A DNA stretch of 64,000 bases from Halohasta litorea. Its GTDB lineage: Archaea > Halobacteriota > Halobacteria > Halobacteriales > Haloferacaceae. The notes beneath the pieces were generated by a model. It ran no database searches and was not told where the DNA came from. It was given only the letters and a program-made list of their open reading frames with translations. Shown in pieces: positions 41,712-60,841 of this stretch (position 1 is its first letter; every line of letters begins with the position of its first letter). The stretch covers positions 310,001 through 374,000 of the forward strand of contig NZ_JANHDJ010000001.1 in assembly GCF_024494645.1 (NCBI RefSeq). The letters are read 5' to 3'. The translations under genes and the position numbers were made by a program.

Positions 41712-42728
41712 TTAGTCTGCCCGGCGGGCCTCGGGCTGTTCGACCGCGGGCTCCCGTGGGAGATCCAGGGCGTCCTGGAGGTCGTGTTCCTCGCCCGTTA
41801 GTATGTAGAGAATGTCTTCGAGTACGGTCAACAGCTCCGGGATCTGACGGGCGACGAGATACGTAATCCCGATGAGTGCGACGACCGCCAGCAGCTGGCT
41901 GATGATGCGGTCGGAGACGAGAAACGAGACCCGATAGGCGTTGGTCTCGCCGAACATGAACAGGACGACCTCGGGGAACCAGTGCATCAGCTGGTTGCCC
42001 GAGACGATCGATATGAACGCCGTCCGGAAGACGTTGAGCACGAAGATGATCGGCACCGCCACAGCCAGCCCCCGGAGTTTGCGGCTCAGTGGGGCCCGCA
42101 CCGCCCCGATGAGGCCGCCGAAGATGGCGATGCTCCCGAGGCCGGTACAGGCCAGGACGATAGAAACGTTGTAGCGATGGCCGTCTTCGAGGATCCATTG
42201 GTAGGTCGCCATATACCCCTCGGGGCTCTCGACGAGCGCTGGCGAGTAGCCGAACAGCGTGATGATCTCGCCGGTCAGCATCGTCACGAACTCGATGAGG
42301 AACTGTCGCGGTGCGGGGAACGTCGCTCCACCCACCGTGAACGCCGGGATCGTCTCGAAGGGGAGATAGATCACTCCCATTACCGCGACCGCCCGCGAGA
42401 GGACGAACAGCGTATCCCGGCCGTCGTAGAGGAGTTTTGCGACATAGAGGCTGGCCGGAAAGCCGACGAGGCTCAGGATTCCCTCGACGTAGCTTTGATG
42501 TTCGAAGGCGAAGGCCGGGAACAGATTCAGCCAAAACAGCCCGAAGCCGACCCACGCCGCGACCGCGATGGGGCGGGCGGTATCCATTAGGTCGGCGTCG
42601 GTCCGGCGGCCGTACCACTCGACGGCTCCGGCGAGGACGAACAGGCCGATGACGACCCACGCCAGGGCGTCCGACAGTGGCCCCACGGTAAACAGTTCGC
42701 TGCGAAGCCACTCAGTCGCCGTTTGCAT
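41712..42728 (-). CDS. artA: Archaeosortase A
   Basis: Membrane cysteine transpeptidase that processes PGF-CTERM proteins and couples them to a lipid anchor. 338 residues with about eight membrane helices. The catalytic residues of the family are present at C194 (ACTGLGS), R235 (NVFRTAF) and R274 (VSDRIISQ), spaced exactly as the essential Cys, Arg and Arg known in the Haloferax enzyme. The C-terminal tail is acidic and cytoplasmic. It is convergent with dph5 and lies in the same region as the S-layer glycoprotein gene, one of its likely substrates; the other is the HExxH protein at 8600. Confidence 0.93.
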   Translation of the reverse strand: MQTATEWLRSELFTVGPLSDALAWVVIGLFVLAGAVEWYGRRTDADLMDTARPIAVAAWVGFGLFWLNLFPAFAFEHQSYVEGILSLVGFPASLYVAKLLYDGRDTLFVLSRAVAVMGVIYLPFETIPAFTVGGATFPAPRQFLIEFVTMLTGEIITLFGYSPALVESPEGYMATYQWILEDGHRYNVSIVLACTGLGSIAIFGGLIGAVRAPLSRKLRGLAVAVPIIFVLNVFRTAFISIVSGNQLMHWFPEVVLFMFGETNAYRVSFLVSDRIISQLLAVVALIGITYLVARQIPELLTVLEDILYILTGEEHDLQDALDLPREPAVEQPEARRAD

Positions 42729-43428: not shown

Positions 43429-46056
43429 TTAGTTCTGACGTCGGGTCGCGAGGAGTGCTGCGCCGAGGACTGCAACGAGTGCGACGATGGCACCGAATCC
43501 GGGCGTCTCCTCGCTGGAGGAGTCGTCGGATTCACCGTCGTCGGATGCGCTATCGTCAGACGAGCTGTCGTCAGACGAGCTGTCGTCGGACGAGCTGTCG
43601 TCAGACGAGCTGTCGTCGGACGAGCTGTCGTCGGACGAGCTGTCGTCTTCAGGGGCTTCGTCTTCGAGAGTGCCCTCTTCGACGAGCATGGAGTCGACCG
43701 AGTCAACCGACGAGCCACTCACGCGGTATTCGGTCTGGAACTGATCTTCGACATCCTGATCGCTGAAGTCGAATTCGGCCGAGACCGAACCGTCTTCAGT
43801 GATGTTGACGTCCTGTCCGTTACGGAACGAGGACGAGGCTTCGGTCGAAGAGACGCGGATCGTCGCGTCGGTTCCGGGTGCGACGTTCGTCTCACCACTG
43901 ATCTCGGAGTCTTCGATGTTCTCGGCTTCGAGGACATCATCGACGTTCACGTTATCGAAGTCGATGCTACGCGGTGCCAGATCGAACTGGGCACTGCTGC
44001 TGAGTGTCTCGCCCTGTGCGAGGTACGGGTAGTTCTCGGCGTTGTCTGCGTTACCGAACGGAGCCGGACTCTGGTCGGTAGCGAACTCGTACCGGTTGTC
44101 CTCGTTGTCAGCATCGTATTCGAGTTCTGCGTTGAAGCTAACGTCTTCTTCAGGCGCGTCACCGTTCTTGAAGGCGCTGTCCGAACTCGTATCAGCGACG
44201 ACGAAGAACTGACCGTTCTCTTCGTCAAGCACCACGAAGGTGTCGCTGTCGCCACCGTCTTCCAGGTTAACCTTCAGCGGGGCCTGGTTACCGGTAGATT
44301 CTTCCGCAGTAACCTCGAAGTTGATCGATTCGTTGGTGTCCTCAACGAACTTGTAGAGGACGTCACTCGAAACACCGTCGTCGAGTCGATCCCAGTCAGA
44401 ATTGGCAGCGGTGTCACCATCTGCGCCGGCGACTAGGCCACCGTAGAGACCGGTTGCCTCGACTTGGACGATGAGACGGTCTTCGATAGCGACCTCGTCA
44501 CGGACCGTTGCAGCGTCGACGAGTTCGCTGACTTCGGTTTCGTCGTTTGCACTCTCACTAGGTGCCGTATGAACGGTGATGTCACCGATCGTTGGCTGCT
44601 CGAGTGTCAGCACAGCGCTTGCGAGCTGGTCGGTGGCTTCGCCACCGGAACTCGCATCAAAGACGGACTCGTCTTCCGTGTCGATGTCCGTGCCACCGAT
44701 CTGGATTTCGTAATCCGTCGGCTGGAGCGGTCGGGTTAGCTGGGAGTCGTACTCATCAGAGAGCGAGAGATCGCTCGTGATGTAATCAATGTAATCGTTG
44801 GAAGCACTATCACTGGTACCTTCATCGTCACCGAAGAGCTTCGCATCATCGGGGACGTTCTGGAAGGTACCACCGTTTGGTCCTGCTTCGTGGTAACCAC
44901 TCTCGATAGTGTCGACGTTCTCAGTGTCGTAGACCTCTTCTGTGTCAAGTCCCGGATCGGTACCGAGGAGACGGGTGTTGGCCGAGATGCTTACTGGCTC
45001 GTCTTCGTCGTCAGCCTGCACGTACAGGACTTCAACGAAGTCAGAGTCTTCATCACCGATCTGGACCCACGTCTCGTCGGTGTCTTCCAGTTCGAACTCG
45101 AAGGTTGCAATGTCACCAGCGGTGTCGGTGACTGCACCCTCACTGAAGGACGCTCCTTCGTCGGATTCGGAGATACTGACCGTATCTGTTGCGGTTGCGC
45201 CGGTATCAGACACGATGAACTCGAACTCGTACTCACCAGCGTCTGGGAGTCCGGCGTTGTTCTCGAGGTTCGAAACGTTCATCTGGAGATCGCTACCGGA
45301 AACCGTTCCGTTACTCTCGAGTGTGTCTAGGTTGAGCGTGACGTAATCGTCATCTCGGATGTCATTGATGTTGTCGCCGTCCTCACGATCGTAGCCGAGG
45401 TGATCGAGCGGGAGATCGTCCGAATCGGTGACCGTACCGGTTGTCCCGTTCTTCGTCTCGAACAGGTCTTCGATCATCTCTGCGTCGAAGGAGTCAGGAC
45501 CGTCGACGCTGACCGTTAGATTGTAGTCTGTGGCCTGTCGGTCCGAATCGAGTTCGATAACGCTTGCGTTGTCGGTTCCGTCAACCTCGCTGTCATCGAA
45601 CTCAGCACTGAAGCCTTCGCTAATAACCGAGAAGGTCTGGACGATTTCCGTGTTACCACTCTGGTAGTTCGCTGTGTTCGAGATACCGTACTCGGCTCCG
45701 GTCTCGAGATCCGTGGTATCTACCTCGTAATTGGTGAATGTCGAATCATCGGTCGCTTCTGGGTTCAGCGTACCGATGAGGCTGGTCCCGTCAATATCAC
45801 CATTATCTCTCGAAACTTCCACCAGGTACGCACTGTCACCTGCTGTGTAGTTACTTGAGTCCGGTACTGTTGTGTTGAATTCCTGCCCAGTGTAAACTGT
45901 TGATGGAATTCCAGAGTTACCTACTTCTTCGGGTGCTGTCGCAGCCGCACCGCCCGCAAACGCTGCGGGAACGGCGACGACTGAAAGGATCATAAGCGCG
46001 GCAAGGAACGCTGCACGTCCCTTCTCGCGATATGATGTTGTGTCGTTTCGTGTCAT
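43429..46056 (-). CDS. csg: S-layer glycoprotein (major cell-surface glycoprotein) with PGF-CTERM
   Basis: Forms the surface lattice outside the membrane. 875 residues. The signal peptide SYREKGRAAFLAALMILSV is the stereotyped haloarchaeal S-layer type, cleaved near AFA. The body is acidic and beta-rich, with BGTF-type surface domains and many N-x-S/T sequons (for example EFNTT, NYTAG, NVSNL, NESIN). A DDSSS-repeat stalk (six exact 15-bp units at 43559-43648) precedes PGFGAIVALVAVLGAALLATRRQN, a PGF-CTERM tail cut by ArtA. The ATG at 46056 is the first in a good context. Landmarks NTRLLG, TGLYGGLV and ISGETNVAPG recur in the paralogue at 50089. Confidence 0.92.
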   Translation of the reverse strand: MTRNDTTSYREKGRAAFLAALMILSVVAVPAAFAGGAAATAPEEVGNSGIPSTVYTGQEFNTTVPDSSNYTAGDSAYLVEVSRDNGDIDGTSLIGTLNPEATDDSTFTNYEVDTTDLETGAEYGISNTANYQSGNTEIVQTFSVISEGFSAEFDDSEVDGTDNASVIELDSDRQATDYNLTVSVDGPDSFDAEMIEDLFETKNGTTGTVTDSDDLPLDHLGYDREDGDNINDIRDDDYVTLNLDTLESNGTVSGSDLQMNVSNLENNAGLPDAGEYEFEFIVSDTGATATDTVSISESDEGASFSEGAVTDTAGDIATFEFELEDTDETWVQIGDEDSDFVEVLYVQADDEDEPVSISANTRLLGTDPGLDTEEVYDTENVDTIESGYHEAGPNGGTFQNVPDDAKLFGDDEGTSDSASNDYIDYITSDLSLSDEYDSQLTRPLQPTDYEIQIGGTDIDTEDESVFDASSGGEATDQLASAVLTLEQPTIGDITVHTAPSESANDETEVSELVDAATVRDEVAIEDRLIVQVEATGLYGGLVAGADGDTAANSDWDRLDDGVSSDVLYKFVEDTNESINFEVTAEESTGNQAPLKVNLEDGGDSDTFVVLDEENGQFFVVADTSSDSAFKNGDAPEEDVSFNAELEYDADNEDNRYEFATDQSPAPFGNADNAENYPYLAQGETLSSSAQFDLAPRSIDFDNVNVDDVLEAENIEDSEISGETNVAPGTDATIRVSSTEASSSFRNGQDVNITEDGSVSAEFDFSDQDVEDQFQTEYRVSGSSVDSVDSMLVEEGTLEDEAPEDDSSSDDSSSDDSSSDDSSSDDSSSDDSSSDDSASDDGESDDSSSEETPGFGAIVALVAVLGAALLATRRQN
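43559..43648 (-). repeat. Six tandem 15-bp repeats encoding the DDSSS stalk
   Basis: Plus-strand unit GACGAGCTGTCGTCR, six copies in a row with only the last base varying (A or G). On the coding strand it reads as DDSSS. Such an exact array can expand or shrink by slippage, so stalk length may vary between strains. Confidence 0.85.
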
Positions 46057-48005: not shown

Positions 48006-49109
48006 CTATTCGTTTTCGGCGGCCGCCCGGAGTTCGGCAAGCCGTTGGCAGTCTCCGATGCCAGCCAACACCACGAGCGCGAGTATCTCGTCGGTGTCGG
48101 GTGTCGGAATGTCGCCGCCGCGGATCTCGACGCTGCCGGTCTCTTGGGCGAGCCATGACCGTGCGTCGGCGATCGCTCGGCGGTTGAGCCACTCGGGCGG
48201 TCCGCCGGTTACCAACAGTCCCCGTTCGACCGCCCCGCGGTCGACATCGACCGTTAGCTTCCCATTAACGGCCCGTCGGACGGTGGTTTCGATGGCCTTG
48301 ATCGCCGTTGTCTCGTCGAGGTCGACCTCCTTGGTAAACAGCCCCAGTCCGAACCGGGATTCGGTCGGCCGCTCGATTTCCTGTGTGGCGTAGCCGAGGG
48401 CGACGATCCGACCCTCCGAGAGAGTGTTGATCACCTCGCTTGCGTCGACGACGCTCTCGGCGACCCGACCGCTGCGGTCGGCTTCTCCGGCCTCGAACAG
48501 CGCGATGAGTCGGGTCGCCAGCGTCTCGTTGAGCCGAGTGCGAACTTCGGGTTCGGCCGCGGATTCGGCAGTTTTCGTCCACAGCGCGTTGTCGAAGACG
48601 AACAGCGCGTCGGTCGCTTCCAACACGGGGTCGACCGCTTTCCCGGCGTTGGCCGCCCGGCGTTGCTGGTCGGTGGTCTCGGTTCGCTCCGTCTCCGGCA
48701 GCACCCCAACGCCGTAGATCGGCACCCCGTACACTTCACGGAGTTCGGCGGCGAGTGTCGGTAGTAGCGTCGCCCCGGTGCCTCCAGCGAGGCTGGTACA
48801 CAGCAGGAATGCATCGCCACGGGAGGTTGCGAGATCGTCGACCGCCCGAAACAGCTCGGTCAGCTCCTCGTCGGCAGCCTCCTGCCCGCGGTTGCGGTGA
48901 CCATCGAACCCTCGCCCGGAGCCGGTGAGTGTACCGTACAGATGGCGGTTGTCTTCGGGTATCGTTTCGAGGTCGGCCAGCGACCCCTGGTCGGTATCGA
49001 GGGCAACGGTGTCGACGACCGCCGACCGCGAGCCGCGTTCGTCAGCCGCTGCCACCGTGTCGGCGATCCGGGAACCTGCGCCGCCGAGTCCACAGACGAT
49101 GAGTTGCAT
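48006..49109 (-). CDS. Tubulin/FtsZ superfamily protein, divergent (CetZ/FtsZ-like)
   Basis: 367 residues of GTPase-type tubulin fold. The N-terminus has VCGLGGAGSRIAD, and the tubulin signature is SLAGGTGATLL at 106-116 (GGTG core retained). The T7 catalytic loop, normally NxDFADV, is best matched by VVDASEV at 220-226: the asparagine is valine, the first Asp is D222 and the second is E225. Hydrolysis may therefore be weak or altered. In Halobacteria such proteins control cell shape or are uncharacterised; I cannot assign this to a CetZ subgroup. It stands alone between two surface-protein genes. Confidence 0.8.
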   Translation of the reverse strand: MQLIVCGLGGAGSRIADTVAAADERGSRSAVVDTVALDTDQGSLADLETIPEDNRHLYGTLTGSGRGFDGHRNRGQEAADEELTELFRAVDDLATSRGDAFLLCTSLAGGTGATLLPTLAAELREVYGVPIYGVGVLPETERTETTDQQRRAANAGKAVDPVLEATDALFVFDNALWTKTAESAAEPEVRTRLNETLATRLIALFEAGEADRSGRVAESVVDASEVINTLSEGRIVALGYATQEIERPTESRFGLGLFTKEVDLDETTAIKAIETTVRRAVNGKLTVDVDRGAVERGLLVTGGPPEWLNRRAIADARSWLAQETGSVEIRGGDIPTPDTDEILALVVLAGIGDCQRLAELRAAAENE

Positions 49110-49156
49110 AGCGACTCCTCGGAGCGGTACGCAAAAAAGAATGTGCTCGGTGACCC

Positions 49157-49951
49157 CTAGAACGGGAACAGCGACTCGGCGTCGGGATCGCGTTCGATGA
49201 GTTCGATCTCGTGGCCGTCCTGGTCGGTCGTAAAGGCATACAGGTCGTCGCACTCTTCGGGACTCCGGTAGTCCGCTGCCTCGCGGAGCATGAGTTGGTC
49301 CCAGTCCTCCTGGAGATCGTCGACGCGCACGCAAAGATGGCCCCACGCATCGCCCATCGTGTAGGAGCGGCCATCATAATTATACGTGAGTTCGAGCCAC
49401 ATCGCCTCCTGAGGGGCGTCTTCGGGGCCCATGAAGTAGTTCGCAAAGCTGTCGGATTCCCAGCGGCTCCGCGGTTCGACGTACTCGAACTTCCGGGTCC
49501 AGAAGCCGAGGGCCTCGTCGGCGTCCTCGACGCGCATCATCGTGTGGTCGATCGACCACAGGGCACCGTAGTCGCGCTGGACAATCTCGACCTCGTGGCC
49601 GTCGGGGTCTTTGACAAAGGCGTAGCGGCCCCCACAGGATTCGGGGTCCCGGTAGTCCTCAACGCCCTCGTCCATGAGCTGCTGGTAGTGGGCCTCCAGT
49701 TCGCCTTCGGGGACTCGGACCGCAATGTGGCCCCACGCGTCGCCCACTTCGTCTGTGGTCTCGCCGTGGTTCGAGGTGAGTTCGAGCATCGCACCGTCGT
49801 CGTGCATTCCTTCCGGCCCGAGATAGACAATGGTGAAGCCGTCGCCCTCGTGTCGGTCTTTCTCCTCATAGCCGAGGTGGGTCTGGTACCAGTCGACCGA
49901 TGTTTCGAGGTCGTCGACGCGCAGCATTACGTGATCGAAGAGTCCAGTCAT
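49157..49951 (-). CDS. VOC family (glyoxalase-type) protein with two domains
   Basis: 264 residues made of two tandem vicinal-oxygen-chelate modules (about 1-125 and 130-255), each with a start like FDHVMLRVDDLETS or IDHTMMRVEDADEA and an end DPDGHEVEIV or DQDGHEIELIE. The metal-binding His and Glu positions (H6, E58-type ELTSN and H in WGHIAVRV) are seen in both halves. It could be a glyoxalase I-like lyase or another VOC enzyme; the substrate is not fixed. On the minus strand just before the FtsZ-like gene (47 bases). Confidence 0.85.
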   Translation of the reverse strand: MTGLFDHVMLRVDDLETSVDWYQTHLGYEEKDRHEGDGFTIVYLGPEGMHDDGAMLELTSNHGETTDEVGDAWGHIAVRVPEGELEAHYQQLMDEGVEDYRDPESCGGRYAFVKDPDGHEVEIVQRDYGALWSIDHTMMRVEDADEALGFWTRKFEYVEPRSRWESDSFANYFMGPEDAPQEAMWLELTYNYDGRSYTMGDAWGHLCVRVDDLQEDWDQLMLREAADYRSPEECDDLYAFTTDQDGHEIELIERDPDAESLFPF

Positions 49952-50088: not shown

Positions 50089-53000
50089 TCAGGTCCACTG
50101 GCCGAGGAGGTGCATCGCACCGGTGACTGTCGCTGCGACCGCGACATCCCGACTCCGGATACCGAACAGCCCAAACAGCCCCTCGGGGTCGGACTCTGTC
50201 GGGTCACCTGTCTCCTCGGGCGAACCGCTCACTGTTGGCCCCTCGGAGTCGAGACTGTTGATTCGGGTGTCGTTCTCCGAATCGGGTTCGGTAACGGTGA
50301 GCTGGCCGGTCCGTTCGTCGTCTTCGGTTCGGACGGTATACTCGTACTCACCGACCGGCAGCACGACGAACTCATCGGACAGATCCAGAGACACGTCTTC
50401 GCCAGCTTCGAGTGTCACGGATTGGTTTCTGATCGTCTCCCCGTCGAGAGTGAATTCGACCAGTTGCCGATCGGCGATCTCACCGGTGTTGACGATCGTC
50501 GTTTCGATCGCCGAGAGCCGCTGGCCGCGAACGACTTCTGCCTCTTCGGTCAACGATTCGATCTCAAAGTTTGATGGGTTGTCGAGATCGTCGACGACTC
50601 TCACGCCGCGTTTGTCGATGAGTCGGTTCTCGATGAGCCGCCCTTGAGAGTAGAACTCGACTTCGACCCGTTCGCCCGGCTCGAAATCGGAGAAGTCTTC
50701 GGTTATCTCGAAGGTGCGGTCCTCGCTGATTTCGACGTCCTCGATCGTGATCGTTTTCGGATTCGGACGGTTGCTCGCGATCAACTGCATTTCAGCCTGC
50801 GAGCCCGGGGCGATGTTAGTCTCCCCCGAGATAACGCTCCCCTCCTCGGCAGCAACGATCAGCTCGTCATTCAGTGTGGTCTCGCCGTAATCGATGTAGG
50901 GGTCCTCGAAGACGAACGAATCGTTGGCACTCACGGTCGTATCACTCGATCCAAAGTACGGGAAGTGTTCGAGTCCGTCGACTTCGTTGACGGCCGGATC
51001 GAACGGGTTGGGTCTCGCGCCGATCGAAAAGTCGTAGTTTTTGTATTCGTACCGGCTATCGGGTGGTGACTCATAGGCGATATCGAACGTGAGCTCGTCG
51101 CCATCCCGCGGCTGTCTGTCGAACGGGTCATTTCCACGGGTGTCGATGACGACATAAAAGCCACCGATGAGGGGATCGGTGCCGATCGCATCGGTGTTGT
51201 TCCATTGGTCGGCGCTATCGTCCGGGAGGATATACAGATCACTCTCGTCTACATTTTCGAACTGGAGGGTCGATCCCCCGTGATTCGGCGCACCGAGTTC
51301 GGTATCTGTGAGCTCGATGTGAACTCCTTCGTGGCGGTCGAGCAGGGTCTGGACCCAATCGGCTGGGATATTACCTGGACCATCTTGGTTGGTGTTGACG
51401 ACTGAGTTCTCGCTGGCCTGGCGGTCCATGAGCGCCCCGTACATCCCGACCGACTGGACTTCTATGAGGATCCGATCCCCACGAGCGACTCTGTCGGTTT
51501 CGGTCGCCGCACCGAGTAGCGCCCCGATATCACCGGTTCCCATCGATTCGTCGGTGTCGTCGAACTGCTCGACACGGTCCGCCGCAGCCGGTGGAAGCGT
51601 GTAGGTCGTCACCTCGCCGATCTCCGGCTGAGTAAACACGAGGTTCGATCGGGCAACGGGCTGCCGGAAGTCCGGGATGTTGTCGTTCCGTTCGATCACC
51701 GTGCCACTGCCGCCAGCGACCAGCCGGTACCGACCGGCCTGCAGCGGGCTGCCTCTCGCCGAGAGCCCCATCTCCGTGCGGAATTCGGCCAGCGTCCCGG
51801 CGATCTCGTTTCCGTTTTCGTCCTCGAAGGACACATCCGAGAACTCGCCTGTGGGCTCGCTGCCCGCGCCGATCGAGTGGGCGTAGCTCGTGACATCACC
51901 TTCGACCGGAATATAAACGTCCTCAGAATCCCGATCACTGCCGACGAGTCGGGTGTTGATAACGAAGGTGGCATCGCCGGAGACGTGCAACACATCGAGA
52001 TAGTTCTGCAGGTTCCCTTCGTTGGCCTCCCGGTCGCCACCGATCAGAATGTATGCCTCGTCGAGATCTCCGGTCGAGAGACTCACCTCGACGAAGTCAC
52101 CGGCTGGCGACTGATAATCCGTCTCGGAGAACTCGACCTGTTCGGAATCGAAGACGTTCGAGACTTCGAACGATTCGGTTTTGCTCGTCCCGAGGGCCGA
52201 GAGATCGATAGTGTACTGTCCGTCATTGATCTGTTGGCGTTCGGGTACGGTGAACGTCGTCTCGCCTTCGAATGTCCCGTACTCAGTATCCAATGTGGTT
52301 GGGGAGACGATTCCGTCGACGCTGAAATCGACTGTATCGTATACTGTTTCGTTGAACGAGTAGCTCACAGTTACTTCATCACCGGCCTGCCAGGAATCCG
52401 GCGCGACTGAGTCGATACTGAGTTCGACGGGTTCCGTTCGCTCGACCGTGAACTCCTCCTCGCTCGTTTCTCCCTGTCTGATCTGGATCTCTCGGGTTTC
52501 GGTTTCGTACTTCGGATGCTCGACGGTCAGCTCGTGGGAGCCGAACGGGAGATCGGCAAATGAGTATTCACCGTTCGAATCGGTTGTGGTCGTGTCTTCA
52601 CCCTCGACAGTGACGTTAATTCCGTGGAGCGGTGCACTCGACCCATCGACGGACTGTACGACACGCCCTTCAAGCCCGCCGTTAACGTGATCGAGTTCGA
52701 AATTCACCGTCTCGCCAGACTCTGAAATCGATGACGACTCTTCGCTAGACATGAAATTATCCGCCGAGGCGGTGATCGTCCGCGTTTTTTCGGGGGAGGT
52801 CGTACTTACAGGAACGTTGTTAATCGTGTATCCGCCGCTCGAATCGGTCGTTGCGGTCAGCGATCCCAACCCCGGCCACATATCGGGGTCGTCGACTGCG
52901 ACCTCAATGGTGGCGTCTCGGATCGGATTTCCCCTAGTGTTCGTGACTGACCCGGAGACAGTCGTGAGCCGTTCGCTCATATCTGGGTTGACGCTGGTCG

Positions 53001-53643
53001 TGCTGCCCTCGTTCACGGAGATATCGCTTTGTGTGGCTGGTTCGAAGCCGTCCTGTGTTGCTTCGATATCGACCACACCAGTTGGAACCTCAATCGAATA
53101 CTCTCCGTTTGCATCCGTTTCAACAGTTGACGGTAAGTCAGTGCCTTCGATCAGGTCCTGATCGGATCGGTGACTCACCGCTATTTCCACATCGGGTATC
53201 GGACCCTCGATTTCTCCCCCCGTCGACTCGACTGTTCCAGACACGTTCCCGGTAGTTCGTTCCAGCGCTTGATTGTCAATGAAATTCTCGGTCACCGGTG
53301 AGTTGGTGGTTGAGACGGAAATTTCTCTGTTGACACTCTTGTAGTTGTTGTTCGGATCGCTGATTTCCAGTGTCTGGTCCTCATAGGGGACATCTTCAAG
53401 ACGGTAGGTACCATCGCTGTCGGTCGTTGTTTCGAGATCGTCGTATTTGGCGATGCTGACTGTCACATCGCCAAGCGGCTCGCCGATCTCGTTTTCGATC
53501 GTTCCCGTGATGTTGCCACTAGCTGGGTCACCGTCTTGATGATCGGCAGCAACACTCCCGGTCAACAGCACGACACCACCCAGCAATAGGAGGGTAAAAA
53601 GAATGACAAGCCGATGGGTTCGTCCGAAAACTAAGGATCTCAT
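50089..53643 (-). CDS. S-layer glycoprotein paralogue with carboxypeptidase-regulatory repeats, no PGF-CTERM
   Basis: 1184 residues. A signal peptide (LVILFTLLLLGGVVLLTGSVA) is followed by four carboxypeptidase-regulatory-like (CarboxypepD_reg/Cna_B) units starting near 45, 133, 225 and 325 (GTIENEIGEPLGDVTV, GRVVQS). The second half, about 480-1000, parallels the S-layer glycoprotein at 43429: NTRLVG against NTRLLG, VGMYGALM against TGLYGGLV, and ISGETNIAPG against ISGETNVAPG. A CARDB-like unit then precedes a C-terminus ending DVAVAATVTGAMHLLGQWT, with no PGF motif and no basic tail. The anchoring is unclear. The start is ATG 53643, with TTAAATACC about 48 bases upstream. Confidence 0.82.
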   Translation of the reverse strand: MRSLVFGRTHRLVILFTLLLLGGVVLLTGSVAADHQDGDPASGNITGTIENEIGEPLGDVTVSIAKYDDLETTTDSDGTYRLEDVPYEDQTLEISDPNNNYKSVNREISVSTTNSPVTENFIDNQALERTTGNVSGTVESTGGEIEGPIPDVEIAVSHRSDQDLIEGTDLPSTVETDANGEYSIEVPTGVVDIEATQDGFEPATQSDISVNEGSTTSVNPDMSERLTTVSGSVTNTRGNPIRDATIEVAVDDPDMWPGLGSLTATTDSSGGYTINNVPVSTTSPEKTRTITASADNFMSSEESSSISESGETVNFELDHVNGGLEGRVVQSVDGSSAPLHGINVTVEGEDTTTTDSNGEYSFADLPFGSHELTVEHPKYETETREIQIRQGETSEEEFTVERTEPVELSIDSVAPDSWQAGDEVTVSYSFNETVYDTVDFSVDGIVSPTTLDTEYGTFEGETTFTVPERQQINDGQYTIDLSALGTSKTESFEVSNVFDSEQVEFSETDYQSPAGDFVEVSLSTGDLDEAYILIGGDREANEGNLQNYLDVLHVSGDATFVINTRLVGSDRDSEDVYIPVEGDVTSYAHSIGAGSEPTGEFSDVSFEDENGNEIAGTLAEFRTEMGLSARGSPLQAGRYRLVAGGSGTVIERNDNIPDFRQPVARSNLVFTQPEIGEVTTYTLPPAAADRVEQFDDTDESMGTGDIGALLGAATETDRVARGDRILIEVQSVGMYGALMDRQASENSVVNTNQDGPGNIPADWVQTLLDRHEGVHIELTDTELGAPNHGGSTLQFENVDESDLYILPDDSADQWNNTDAIGTDPLIGGFYVVIDTRGNDPFDRQPRDGDELTFDIAYESPPDSRYEYKNYDFSIGARPNPFDPAVNEVDGLEHFPYFGSSDTTVSANDSFVFEDPYIDYGETTLNDELIVAAEEGSVISGETNIAPGSQAEMQLIASNRPNPKTITIEDVEISEDRTFEITEDFSDFEPGERVEVEFYSQGRLIENRLIDKRGVRVVDDLDNPSNFEIESLTEEAEVVRGQRLSAIETTIVNTGEIADRQLVEFTLDGETIRNQSVTLEAGEDVSLDLSDEFVVLPVGEYEYTVRTEDDERTGQLTVTEPDSENDTRINSLDSEGPTVSGSPEETGDPTESDPEGLFGLFGIRSRDVAVAATVTGAMHLLGQWT

Positions 53644-53809: not shown

Positions 53810-54226
53810 ATGCCGGAGTGTACAAATTGTGGCACCCAAGTCGGGGAGTCGGCCAACTTCTGTCCGAACTGCGGGAAGCCACAGAACCCAACCGCTCAAA
53901 ACCGGCTCGATCAGAAGATCGAAAAGCGGGCCAGCCAACAGGCCAGCCAGCAGGCTGGATCGAGCCAGTCGACAAGCCAACGGAGCCAGCGCGACGAGCT
54001 CATCGAGCGCGCAGGCTACGCGTTTGGATTCATTTTTGTCGTTTCGGCAGTTTCGGTCCTCCCGAGTCCTGGAGGCGTGTTCACGCTCCTCGGCGGACTA
54101 CTGTTGTTCCCACCCGTCCGACAGCTCTCAGCACGAGTGTTCGGATCGCCACTTAAAGCGGAATTCAACGCGGCCGTCGCAGTCGTGTTGATGCTTCTCG
54201 GCACTGCGATTCACTACATCTTGTAA
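53810..54226 (+). CDS. Zinc-ribbon membrane protein
   Basis: 138 residues: an N-terminal zinc ribbon (CTNCG and CPNCGKP), a Gln/Ser-rich linker (QQASQQAGSSQSTSQRSQ) and two or three membrane helices (YAFGFIFVVSAVSVL, GGVFTLLGGLLLF, AAVAVVLMLLGTAIHYIL). The role is unknown; the layout recalls the gene at 31998 turned round. It is divergent from the S-layer paralogue and convergent with the surface protein at 54258. Confidence 0.75.
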   Translation: MPECTNCGTQVGESANFCPNCGKPQNPTAQNRLDQKIEKRASQQASQQAGSSQSTSQRSQRDELIERAGYAFGFIFVVSAVSVLPSPGGVFTLLGGLLLFPPVRQLSARVFGSPLKAEFNAAVAVVLMLLGTAIHYIL

Positions 54227-54257: not shown

Positions 54258-55541
54258 CTACCGTCGACGCCAGACGACGAACGTCCCCACCGAGAGTGCG
54301 GTCATGACGAGCCCGATGAGCGCTTGTGGATACAACAGCCCGATCAAGGTGTCGACAATCCCACCGCTCTCGGTGGTTTCTTCGCCGTCGCCGGTCTCCG
54401 ACTCCGACTCGGTGCCCTCGACTGTGATCGTTCCCTCAACACTGTCACCGTCGGTGGTGACGGCGTATGCGGCCTCACCCGGATCGGTGGGGGCCTGTAG
54501 TGTCGTCGACACCGTGGTTTCGGCTCCCGAGTCGAGCCGTGTCCCAACCGAAGCCCGTGACTCCTCGCCCAACTCGAAGACGACGTCTCCCCGTTCGGTC
54601 GTCGGCCACTCATTGGTCACCGTCGCGGTGATTGTCACCGACTCACCGGGCTCGACACGCTCGGAAATGTCGAGCGACGAGATACGGAACGGCCCGCCCT
54701 CCGGGGATTCGCTTGGCAGTGCCACGGTCTCGGTGCGGCCGGTGTCAGTTACTTCGACAGTGATCGCATCGGGGAACGTCTCGATCGTACTGAAATCCGT
54801 CTCCAGAGATCCATCGTTGAACCCACGGAGCACGATCACGTCTGCATCGGCGTGGGTGTCATACATTCGGCGGCGCTCTCCGAACGGCGTCCGGTCGGCG
54901 AACGGTCTGTTGTGGTCTCGGAGCATTCGATCGCTCATGAACACTCCCTCCAACTCGGTGTAGGAGAGTGTTGGACTGCTTACGTTGACGTTGTATCGAA
55001 CGCGGTTCGACTGCAGTTCGATCTCCCGATCGCTCTGTGACGTGCTGGATGCCCCACCCTCCCACTCCACCGCAAGCGTCTGTTCGAGCACTTCGAAGGG
55101 GGCTGCGTTTTCGACGGACGTAGTGCCAGCCACAGCCCCGTCGTTGATGTCGACGGTCGTCCCGCGACTATTGCCGAGGACCAACACGTACGTGCCCTCG
55201 AGATCGGTTGTCTCCAAGGTCGTTTCATTGTCTTCGAATGTGATCTCGCGAACAAGCGGTCCGACCTCCTCGGTTTCGGTATCGTACTCTCGGAGGAGGA
55301 GTCCCTCGGCGTCGATCTCGTTGTGGGGGTCCTCGAACCAGAGCGTCTGGCCCTGCCAGTAGAGGTCTCCGGAGCTTAGATGCCGGTCGACGCCGTTTCG
55401 CTCGGCGTCATCGTCGGTGTGTGAGAGAAACACCGGCTGGTCGGCACTCGCTGTCGATGCACCGACAGTGCCCACACTCGCAACAGCCCCAAGCACGGCC
55501 AGCAGCACCACACATACCACGACCCGCGTGTGCTCACTCAT
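54258..55541 (-). CDS. Surface protein with S-layer-like N-terminal domain and C-terminal membrane helix
   Basis: 427 residues: a signal peptide (VVVCVVLLAVLGAVASV), then a domain containing LYWQGQTLWFED, the kind of YQGQ segment that begins haloarchaeal S-layer/BGTF proteins. A CARDB-like domain follows near 275-360, then an acidic Ser/Thr/Glu linker (TESESETGDGEETTESGG), a membrane helix and RRR. It is probably a third, smaller surface paralogue anchored by its own helix. The position with the other two surface genes supports that. Confidence 0.72.
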   Translation of the reverse strand: MSEHTRVVVCVVLLAVLGAVASVGTVGASTASADQPVFLSHTDDDAERNGVDRHLSSGDLYWQGQTLWFEDPHNEIDAEGLLLREYDTETEEVGPLVREITFEDNETTLETTDLEGTYVLVLGNSRGTTVDINDGAVAGTTSVENAAPFEVLEQTLAVEWEGGASSTSQSDREIELQSNRVRYNVNVSSPTLSYTELEGVFMSDRMLRDHNRPFADRTPFGERRRMYDTHADADVIVLRGFNDGSLETDFSTIETFPDAITVEVTDTGRTETVALPSESPEGGPFRISSLDISERVEPGESVTITATVTNEWPTTERGDVVFELGEESRASVGTRLDSGAETTVSTTLQAPTDPGEAAYAVTTDGDSVEGTITVEGTESESETGDGEETTESGGIVDTLIGLLYPQALIGLVMTALSVGTFVVWRRR

Positions 55542-55867
55542 GGGTTACCCGTCGAAACCGCCTACAACAGAGATGAACGATCGATTCGAGCAGTCGAAGT
55601 GTGGCTGAGTCATACACCTATGCTGTAACGCGGACGTATTATATCCATCGTCGCTGACCATTCTTTTAATCGATACGTTGTGATATTCCTCTATTCCATT
55701 GTTTTCAAGGGCCTATGAACTACTCCAGATGGTTGAGTCATCGCACCCGTACGGACGATTGAGGTGGTACAACGAGCACAATCCGTACTGTACTCTATTA
55801 TGACGTCGCGCGCTTGAACTCACGGGAACCAACACGTATTATAAGAGTCCGATTGAACAACGTTTCA
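55542..55867. other. Divergent region before uppP
   Basis: 326 bases with no gene I can support. The TATTATAAG box at 55837-55845 is the likely uppP promoter. A second AT-rich box, GTATTATATCC at 55635-55645, could serve the minus-strand surface gene or nothing. No repeat or tRNA seen. Confidence 0.5.
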
Positions 55868-56695
55868 GTGAGTGCTACGGATCTTCTCGTTGCGGTTCTG
55901 GCTGGTATCGTCCAAGGAATCGTTGAGTGGCTTCCGGTCTCCAGTCAAGGTAATCTCTCGCTGTTTTTGACTGGCGTGGGGATGTCTCCGGATATCGCAC
56001 TGCAGCTCGCACTGTTTCTTCAGATTGGGACGACTCTCTCGGCTGCCAGCTACTATCGCGAGGAGATTGCGACTGCGGCCCGCGGACTGCCGCTATGGCG
56101 GCCACAGGCTGCGTTTGACCAACAGAATGCGCTGGTTTCGTTCATTTTGATTGCCTGTCTTATGACTGGGCTCGTCGGGATTCCGCTATATGTGTATGCC
56201 GTCGACTTTGCGGGTCAACTGTCCGGTGGACTGTTTATTGGACTGATCGGTGTCCTCCTTATTCTAACGGGAGTTTTGCAGTTGGCATCTGAATCAGTCG
56301 GCGCAGGCTATCGAGAACACCCCACACTGGTGGATGCCTGTCTCGTCGGCGCTGCACAGGGGGTCGCTATTCTCCCCGGCATTTCTCGGTCCGGGACGAC
56401 AACAAGCACGCTGTTGTTCCGAAGCTACGATCCACCGGTTGCATTTCGGCTTTCATTTCTACTGTCGATTCCCGCTAGTTTGGGGGCTGCGGTCCTCACT
56501 GTCGTTGGTGCTGGTGGCCTCCCTGGAATCAGTCCAGCGGGGGCGATTGCTGCAACTGCTACCAGCGCTGTCGTTGGCTATGTGACTATTGATGCGTTGA
56601 TGCGAATCGTTGAGCGACTCCCGTTTTGGCTCATCTGTTTTGGGCTTGGTGGCCTCGCGATCATTGGTGGTGGCGTCGTCTCGTTGATCGTATGA
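55868..56695 (+). CDS. uppP: Undecaprenyl-diphosphate phosphatase (UppP/BacA family)
   Basis: Dephosphorylates a polyprenyl diphosphate so that the lipid carrier for glycan assembly can be reused. 275 residues and about eight membrane helices. Both catalytic motifs are present: GIVEWLPVSSQGN and PGISRSGTT. GTG 55868 is preferred over ATG-like starts upstream because TATTATAAG sits about 27 bases before it (leaderless). It is the first glycan-related gene here and converges with the minus-strand membrane operon; it fits the sugar transferase and acyltransferase that follow. Confidence 0.93.
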   Translation: MSATDLLVAVLAGIVQGIVEWLPVSSQGNLSLFLTGVGMSPDIALQLALFLQIGTTLSAASYYREEIATAARGLPLWRPQAAFDQQNALVSFILIACLMTGLVGIPLYVYAVDFAGQLSGGLFIGLIGVLLILTGVLQLASESVGAGYREHPTLVDACLVGAAQGVAILPGISRSGTTTSTLLFRSYDPPVAFRLSFLLSIPASLGAAVLTVVGAGGLPGISPAGAIAATATSAVVGYVTIDALMRIVERLPFWLICFGLGGLAIIGGGVVSLIV

Positions 56696-59380: not shown

Positions 59381-60841
59381 ATGTTGACAGGGTGGCGATA
59401 CCGGGCTGTGAGTGTGACTGGTGTTGTCGCGCTCGTCGTGAGTAGTCTCCTTATTGCCAATCACCCCGCAGTCCAGCAGTTGTTCACGACCTACGTGCCG
59501 CTATTTAATCGGCTCGAACCGGCGGTTCTAAACGTCGTCTCGCTGTGGTGGGCGGTACTGTCGAGTGTGGTTGTCATTGGGGGGAGTCTGTTGCCGTTGT
59601 ACAGACCGCGGCCGAGTCGGGTGCTCGATACGGTGTTTTATGCTCAAAAGCGGGTTATTGTTGGTGGGCTTGGACTGGCGGCGTTTGGATATTTCCAGTG
59701 GTCTCACCGCCTCCCGCGGGCAACACTCACGATGACCGTCGGGTTGTTGCTGGTTACTGTGCCAATCTGGTTCGTCTGGATCCGTCGACGGCCGATTGCC
59801 GACGCCGGGCGGACGTTACTGGTTGGTGACGATCTCGAACAAATCGAGCGGATAGCGCTAACGGTCGACTCGGAGGTCGTTGGATGCCTTCGTCCAGCGG
59901 TGACTGCCGATAAGACTGTGATTGCCGACGGTGGTCTCTCAATGTCTGACTCTCCACAGGAGTCCGCTAGGGGTAATGCTACGGCGGCCGAGCAGGTCGA
60001 CGGCCACGGAGGACTTGAATCTCTCTCGCATCTCGGCGGGCTCTCGCGTCTCAATGACGTGCTCGTCGAGGAGGATATCGATACCGTCGTCTTGGCGTTC
60101 CGGCAGGCTGATCGTGGGGACTTTTTCGGGGCACTCGATGTCTGTCACGACCATGGTGTGAACGCGAAAGTCCATCGGGAGTACGCCGACAGTGTGTTGG
60201 TCTCGGAGGGTGATGTTGGAGATCTTGTGGATGTTGATCTCGAACCGTGGGATCCACTAGATCATCTGCTCAAGCGGCTATTTGATATTGTGTTTGCGAC
60301 GGTTGGGCTGGTTGCTTTCGCACCACTGATGACTGTGATAGCCGTCGCAGTCAAACTCGATAGTCCAGGGCCGGTATTCTACTGTCAAGATCGAACCGCA
60401 GGTTTCGGGGAAACGTTCCCAGTGTACAAGTTTCGATCCATGATTCCAGAGAGGGAAGATACAACGCCGACTGAGGACGAAGAGAACAGTCGAATTACTC
60501 GTGTTGGACGTTTACTGCGCAAAACCCACCTAGACGAGCTTCCCCAGCTGTGGTCTATTTTCGTTGGCGATATGAGTGTTGTCGGACCACGGGCGGTATG
60601 GACAGAAGAGGAAGTACTGCTTGAGGATGACGAGCCTGCATGGCGGAAACGGTGGTTCGTCAAGCCAGGATTGACTGGCTTAGCACAGATTAATGATGCC
60701 AAAAGTACGGATCCGAATCTAAAATTGCGATACGATCTAGAGTATATTCGTCAGCAGTCGTTCTGGTTTGATCTGAAGATTGTTATTCGGCAAATCTGGA
60801 AAGTATTGACTGACATCCGAGAGCTCCCCTTTGAAAAGTAA
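59381..60841 (+). CDS. Polyprenyl-phosphate sugar transferase (WbaP/WcaJ type)
   Basis: Starts glycan assembly by moving a sugar phosphate onto a polyprenyl phosphate carrier at the membrane. 486 residues: about four N-terminal helices, a CoA-binding-like Rossmann middle (about 130-270), a further helix (FDIVFATVGLVAFAPLMTVIAV), then the catalytic domain with YKFRSMIP, THLDELPQLWSIFVGDMSVVGPR and KPGLTGLAQI. TTTTATATAAATT is about 27 bases upstream of the ATG. This is the key gene of a polysaccharide or glycan locus together with uppP and the genes at 63 kb. Confidence 0.93.
   Translation: MLTGWRYRAVSVTGVVALVVSSLLIANHPAVQQLFTTYVPLFNRLEPAVLNVVSLWWAVLSSVVVIGGSLLPLYRPRPSRVLDTVFYAQKRVIVGGLGLAAFGYFQWSHRLPRATLTMTVGLLLVTVPIWFVWIRRRPIADAGRTLLVGDDLEQIERIALTVDSEVVGCLRPAVTADKTVIADGGLSMSDSPQESARGNATAAEQVDGHGGLESLSHLGGLSRLNDVLVEEDIDTVVLAFRQADRGDFFGALDVCHDHGVNAKVHREYADSVLVSEGDVGDLVDVDLEPWDPLDHLLKRLFDIVFATVGLVAFAPLMTVIAVAVKLDSPGPVFYCQDRTAGFGETFPVYKFRSMIPEREDTTPTEDEENSRITRVGRLLRKTHLDELPQLWSIFVGDMSVVGPRAVWTEEEVLLEDDEPAWRKRWFVKPGLTGLAQINDAKSTDPNLKLRYDLEYIRQQSFWFDLKIVIRQIWKVLTDIRELPFEK

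Follow-up and report, generated by a model that had tools for sequence, protein, structure and literature searches.

We describe a conserved C-terminal tail, termed the LGxW tail, on an S-layer-like surface protein (P0001) encoded in a 64,000-nucleotide stretch of the Halohasta litorea genome (contig NZ_JANHDJ010000001.1, forward-strand positions 310,001 to 374,000; hereafter the window). Much of the haloarchaeal coat is thought to be held via lipid anchors that depend on archaeosortase A (ArtA), and P0001 lacks the PGF-CTERM signal of that route. That a conserved tail of another kind exists is virtually certain. This tail is very probably a transferable functional signal, and a zinc-ribbon membrane protein encoded divergently beside it is likely to be its functional partner. 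On balance, we favor as the best explanation a sortase-independent tail anchor that is read or retained by the zinc-ribbon protein. Positions in the window are as follows.

50089..53643, minus strand: P0001, S-layer-like surface protein of 1184 amino acids (aa) with the LGxW tail; intact open reading frame (ORF), ATG at 53643
53545..53643, minus strand: probable Sec signal peptide, residues ~1-33, assigned by eye from the sequence (TIGR04207 gives no match)
52438..53514, minus strand: four carboxypeptidase-regulatory-like units, residues ~44-402 (PF13620, 4 stretches, 4e-45; unit borders by eye)
50584..52131, minus strand: S-layer-homologous beta-sandwich region, residues ~505-1020 (BLASTP 2e-29, AlphaFold2 model, Foldseek)
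50635..50871, minus strand: BGTF surface domain, residues 925-1003 (NF045517, 55.9 bits, cut-off 40)
50092..50175, minus strand: LGxW tail, the terminal 28 residues with R at -20 and W at -2 and without a basic end (alignments, profile searches)
53810..54226, plus strand: 138-aa membrane protein with a zinc ribbon and several helices, encoded divergently; candidate partner (PF13240, 1.2e-7)
41712..42728, minus strand: archaeosortase A, the sole archaeosortase found in the genome (TIGR04125, 1.7e-94)
43429..46056, minus strand: PGF-CTERM S-layer protein (P0002), the comparison paralogue (NF045517, TIGR04126, TIGR04207)

Geometry, distribution and constraint of the LGxW tail

The tail is fixed in length. 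Its consensus consists of R[DE], 16 residues, W, a single further residue and the stop codon, with the terminal pattern G..[HY].LG.W., and L-G-x-W is invariant in the aligned tails. Among 59 distinct tail proteins, the residues following the last charged one number 18 in 50 cases, 19 in five and 20 in one, with three exceptions. In a set of 56 tail proteins, Arg occupies position -20 in 53, Trp is followed by exactly one residue in all 56, and neither Lys nor Arg occurs from -18 to -1, part of these positions being set by the regular expression. Since the expressions used for the motif fix part of it, the free observations are the Arg at -20, the length after Trp and the positions outside the expression. 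Gly is found at -15 in 48/56 tails and at -16 in 43/56, and this Gly pair is missing from the tails of Halohasta and of genus g13. A linker rich in Ser, Thr, Asp, Glu and Gly precedes the tail, as is the case with sorting tails. The terminal motif [HY].LG.W. was present in 58 of 5443 distinct ORF ends (at least 100 aa), all belonging to tail proteins, a count that serves as a check of specificity and not as a frequency because the DNA had been chosen for the tail. The R or E spacing is shown by 56 of these 58 ends, and the other two, L109 and L110, likewise belong to tail proteins.

A profile of the last 36 residues (E<1e-4) identified the tail in 57 of 170 genomes of the family, comprising all four Halohasta (g1), all five g13 and 48 of 52 Halorubrum (g21) genomes, mostly as a single copy per carrier; three genomes (G018, G030 and G033; E 0.004-0.006) were set aside, leaving 57 of 60. 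A broader profile extended the distribution to another family (f4), namely to genera g55 and g80 and one g46 genome, so that carriers are Halohasta, Halorubrum and four further genera in two families. In G299, G431 and G439, all from f4, the tail either diverges or lies in a different frame from the body. In Halohasta salina, two tandem tail-bearing paralogues with different tails were observed (L119:6781-13762). Full-length orthologues of P0001 share 71% identity in G046 and 61% in G047, and 97 of the 170 family genomes match the protein when at most four candidates are scored per genome. A single-protein query had returned 48 pattern matches and no relative; an alignment-based query succeeded.

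In a set of 24 Halorubrum-type proteins, the ratio of nonsynonymous to synonymous substitution rates (dN/dS), pooled across the final 20 codons, was ~0.16. The tail is subject to purifying constraint, and its conservation spans two families. In the eight proteins scanned (P0001, L072, L102, L103, L106, L109, L110 and L114; at least one library each), the tail matched no model of Pfam or NCBIfam, and searches of open-licence papers listed none that names a tail of this type.

A probable transferable module and its zinc-ribbon neighbor

Some Halorubrum genomes encode a second tail client, a protein of ~530-590 aa without a BGTF domain. Alignment of a five-row profile of this client with the BGTF family by hhalign covered the last 28 residues only, at 64% identity, and this sharing with an unrelated protein rules out that the tail is merely the inherited end of one orthologous family. 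A convergent gene of ~550 aa adjoins the second client in two loci (L116:4645-6339 and L117:6441-8078); it shows weak, sub-cut-off BGTF similarity and no tail.

The tail also follows its host lineage when the body is foreign. In Halorubrum halophilum, Halorubrum amylolyticum and Halorubrum strain Atlit-26R (together HrrX), the body shares 59% identity with Halohasta and 30% with other Halorubrum, whereas the tail shares 28% and 85%, respectively. Phylogenetic trees place the HrrX bodies with Halohasta and g13 (100/100) and the HrrX zinc-ribbon proteins inside Halorubrum (100/99). This contrast indicates that the tail, like the zinc-ribbon gene, tracks the host and that the body tracks another lineage. 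One reading of the pattern is selection for a matching tail.

The zinc-ribbon protein begins with an N-terminal zinc ribbon, and the remainder is predicted to be helical and is probably membrane-embedded (mean predicted local distance difference test score, pLDDT, 79). The helical part weakly resembles the FxsA family (PF04186; residues 57-111, E=0.0095, 16.5 bits against a gathering cut-off of 25.2), to which the N-terminal zinc ribbon is an addition. The protein was found in 38 of 54 loci examined, some genomes being represented twice, and its gene usually adjoins the tail gene. In 13 loci holding the zinc-ribbon or tail gene, the tail and zinc-ribbon families are the only ones that recur in at least six other loci.

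Across the 170 family genomes, 56 encode both tail and zinc-ribbon protein, one the tail only, two the zinc-ribbon protein only and 111 neither, the last class including Halorubrum genomes G133 and G147 (58 of 59 zinc-ribbon matches kept, G098 at 1.6e-11 set aside). Among the 392 order-level genomes, the tail (E<=1e-4) is present in every one of the 46 that have a zinc-ribbon protein at E<=1e-20, and the sole tail genome without the zinc-ribbon protein is G377 (tail E 1.0e-4, in a 297-aa frame). For these order searches, 46 of 50 zinc-ribbon genomes were kept (G098, G287, G315 and G420, E 6e-9 to 2e-11, set aside), as were 47 of 63 tail genomes (16 with E above 1e-4 set aside). The E-value thresholds were picked after the lists had been seen. 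Because the order set repeats the family genomes, it adds only 10 independent genomes, those of f4, to the family count, and absences are soft because four candidates per genome were scored in the P0001 family search and 10 to 21 in the order searches.

Co-occurrence extends to unlinked genes. In five of the 10 f4 carriers (G216, G230, G299, G356 and G409), tail and zinc-ribbon genes are either widely separated or on separate contigs. In four Halorubrum genomes (G121, G124, G129 and G134), the zinc-ribbon gene has no neighbor encoding an S-layer-like protein but has been kept together with an unlinked second client.

A proposed anchor outside the archaeosortase route and its rivals

In the mechanism that we propose, P0001 would be a secreted, S-layer-derived protein that its own C-terminal tail, and not the PGF-CTERM/ArtA lipid route, keeps at the membrane. 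R[DE] would lie at the outer face, followed by an 18-residue segment of marginal hydrophobicity that closes with G..[HY].LG.W, and the C-terminus would be free exactly one residue past Trp. The tail would enter the membrane, where the zinc-ribbon multi-helix protein would recognize it and retain it; retention by that protein is suggested because the tail is without the usual basic stop. We consider physical retention in the membrane about an even prospect as the mechanism. Still more tentatively, LGxW tails on S-layer-like and immunoglobulin-type surface proteins may represent a second haloarchaeal anchoring system, sortase-independent, in which a dedicated zinc-ribbon receptor recognizes the tail within the membrane and co-evolves with it, bodies are exchangeable between genera and the tail must match the receptor of its host.

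Known sorting tails offer the closest comparison. GlyGly-CTERM, the signal of rhombosortase, comprises a Gly-rich motif, a hydrophobic stretch and a basic end. Small residues likewise open the C-terminal hydrophobic segment in most LGxW tails, which differ from it by their C-terminal LGxW motif and by having no basic end; neither GlyGly-CTERM nor any other NCBIfam CTERM model matched the scanned tail proteins. PMC7157517 describes PGF-CTERM as a PGF motif followed by a hydrophobic domain and a positively charged end, processed by ArtA. Both it and the LGxW tail are short C-terminal modules of haloarchaeal surface proteins that follow an acidic low-complexity linker, contain a hydrophobic segment and are shared by unrelated clients. 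In contrast to PGF-CTERM, the LGxW tail has no PGF and no basic end, places its motif at the extreme C-terminus and not ahead of the hydrophobic stretch, and occurs on only one or two clients per genome. P0001 itself matched no PGF-CTERM model (TIGR04126 or PF18204) in Pfam or NCBIfam.

Carriers have no extra archaeosortase either. The exosortase/archaeosortase family model TIGR04178 has a single match in the H. litorea genome, which is ArtA. An archaeosortase is present in 168 of 170 family genomes, nearly always exactly one, in tail carriers and non-carriers alike, which rules out a second archaeosortase dedicated to the tail.

Several observations weigh against an anchor read by the zinc-ribbon protein. 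The mean hydropathy of the 18-residue segment (~1.0-1.7) is marginal for a membrane span, and the tail of P0001 is of low confidence in the AlphaFold2 model (pLDDT ~33). The zinc-ribbon model has no Foldseek match under E=1 and matches no solved membrane protein. Each gene occasionally occurs alone: the tail without the zinc-ribbon protein in G059 (73% complete), and the zinc-ribbon protein without the tail in G144 (84% complete) and in G153, whose S-layer-like gene is broken in frame. Independent events are few because the co-occurrence genomes fall in six genera. The second clients of G121 and G134 carry Arg in place of Trp, ending in LGLRV (L116:6407-8470) and LGHRV (L117:4508-6286), even with the zinc-ribbon gene present, which speaks against a strict rule. 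Finally, the HrrX swap could have arisen by recombination, the breakpoint falling upstream of a 3' end that is conserved, without any selection for matched tails. The broken S-layer-like gene of G153 adjoins the zinc-ribbon gene (L161) and goes out of frame inside an open frame of 844 codons; the genome yielded no tail.

The strongest rival, which we nevertheless regard as unlikely, is an ordinary C-terminal membrane anchor without recognition, the zinc-ribbon protein being an old divergent neighbor with another role, such as regulation or stress, that is co-inherited. The two genes are indeed adjacent and divergent in most loci, the body varies more than the tail, a pattern common with anchors, and a zinc-ribbon multi-helix protein is not necessarily a receptor. 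However, the invariant L-G-x-W and the exact length go beyond the needs of a generic span, and co-occurrence holds in the unlinked cases among the f4 carriers and the four Halorubrum genomes. An ordinary anchor would also be expected to have a basic C-terminal end, and the five S-layer-type PGF tails among the compared ORF ends do finish in basic residues.

Less probable still is a processing signal, in which an intramembrane protease such as a rhomboid would cut near the Gly-Gly pair and the protein would then be set free or attached to a different anchor, as with rhombosortase and GlyGly-CTERM. A Gly pair at the start of a hydrophobic stretch resembles the helix-breaking sites of rhomboid substrates, Gly is present at -15/-16 in most tails, and the linker recalls that of sorting tails; yet Halohasta and g13 tails are without the pair, and the missing basic end and the lack of any CTERM model match in the scanned proteins also argue against this reading. 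A PDZ-type protease that recognizes the C-terminal carboxylate is a further, speculative idea.

A lost anchor, or an end created by an assembly or frameshift artifact, would account for the missing PGF-CTERM of P0001 and is refuted by the conserved tail: the same end is kept in the same frame across genera, its codons are constrained, and PGF is encoded in none of the three minus-strand frames around the P0001 stop. A frameshift fails as an explanation because of these PGF-free frames and because relatives keep the same C-terminal frame, the closest ones having their last residues in common. The preliminary description of this DNA had rightly noted a C-terminus devoid of PGF-CTERM and of a basic end; that end is not featureless and carries the conserved LGxW tail. 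Of the two outcomes it allowed, anchoring by another route is supported and loss of the anchor is contradicted. A PGF motif restored by correcting a frameshift near 50089, which it had named as a refutation, found no backing in the frames.

The tail warns against treating surface proteins that lack PGF-CTERM as unanchored. A conserved tail outside the ArtA scheme, borne by a surface protein of most Halorubrum genomes examined and paired with one candidate partner, constitutes a small, directly testable system.

Probable S-layer descent and genomic neighborhood

The body of P0001 is related to S-layer proteins. Residues 475-997 align with residues 275-778 of P0002 at 26% identity over 556 columns (BLASTP, E=2e-29), and both proteins match BGTF model NF045517 above cut-off (3.5e-15 for P0001 and 1.4e-18 for P0002), being the only BGTF proteins of the H. 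litorea genome. These results bear out the earlier view that the second half is S-layer-like and paralogous to the protein 4 kb away, and the four PF13620 stretches agree with the carboxypeptidase-regulatory-like units it had placed in the first half. PGF-CTERM (TIGR04126) is present in P0002 at 4.4e-12 and absent from P0001. The equivalog model for ArtA-dependent S-layer glycoproteins (NF041335, >1100 bits) has no match in P0001 and scores only 68.1 in P0002. P0001 thus resembles the haloarchaeal S-layer glycoprotein family in its BGTF domain, its identity to P0002 and its chain of beta-sandwiches, and differs by the N-terminal carboxypeptidase-regulatory-like units and the other tail. In 24 genomes checked for BGTF, most tail carriers hold a further BGTF protein, and G369 holds the tail-bearing one only. 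A tblastn search of plasmids with the protein returned carboxypeptidase-regulatory repeats in six Priestia records and nothing else.

An AlphaFold2 model of residues 409-1184, built with 22 homologues, predicts the beta-sandwich chain with a mean pLDDT of 80. Its first-ranked Foldseek match is the in-situ S-layer protein 7ptp_A (E=5.7e-14), with a whole-length template-modeling score of only 0.25 and with many other immunoglobulin-fold chains scoring close behind. In VIA-align, 7ptp was absent among the 50 matches listed, which mix immunoglobulin and transglutaminase folds, a result that excludes nothing. Sequence searches of solved structures found no match for the profile or for the PGF S-layer protein. 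The predicted fold agrees with S-layer descent, a fit that is not evidence of a lattice. P0001 may act as an alternative S-layer or as a pillar, as the preliminary description had suggested.

Halorubrum is reported to possess a PGF-type S-layer protein (PMC8875312), and PMC10544981 reports two S-layer genes in Hrr. lacusprofundi and a Halorubrum S-layer protein that serves as a virus receptor. Given such a receptor role, swapping bodies while the tail stays constant could be relevant to how the surface varies when viruses exert pressure. A genetic system is also reported for Hrr. lacusprofundi (PMC5052560).

The zinc-ribbon gene is followed in the window by one further surface protein gene.

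54258..55541, minus strand: surface protein of 427 aa with a weak CARDB match, a C-terminal hydrophobic stretch and RRR (library scan and sequence)

This 427-aa protein adjoins the tail gene in Halohasta, in g13 and in two of the three HrrX loci; the remaining Halorubrum loci that were examined did not yield it. A CetZ tubulin-like gene (48006..49265, minus strand; PF21011, 1e-50) lies between the S-layer and tail genes. An undecaprenyl-diphosphatase-like gene (55814..56695, plus strand) and a polyprenyl glycosylphosphotransferase-like gene (59381..60841, plus strand) are located on the other side, and homologues also flank the second client in L114.

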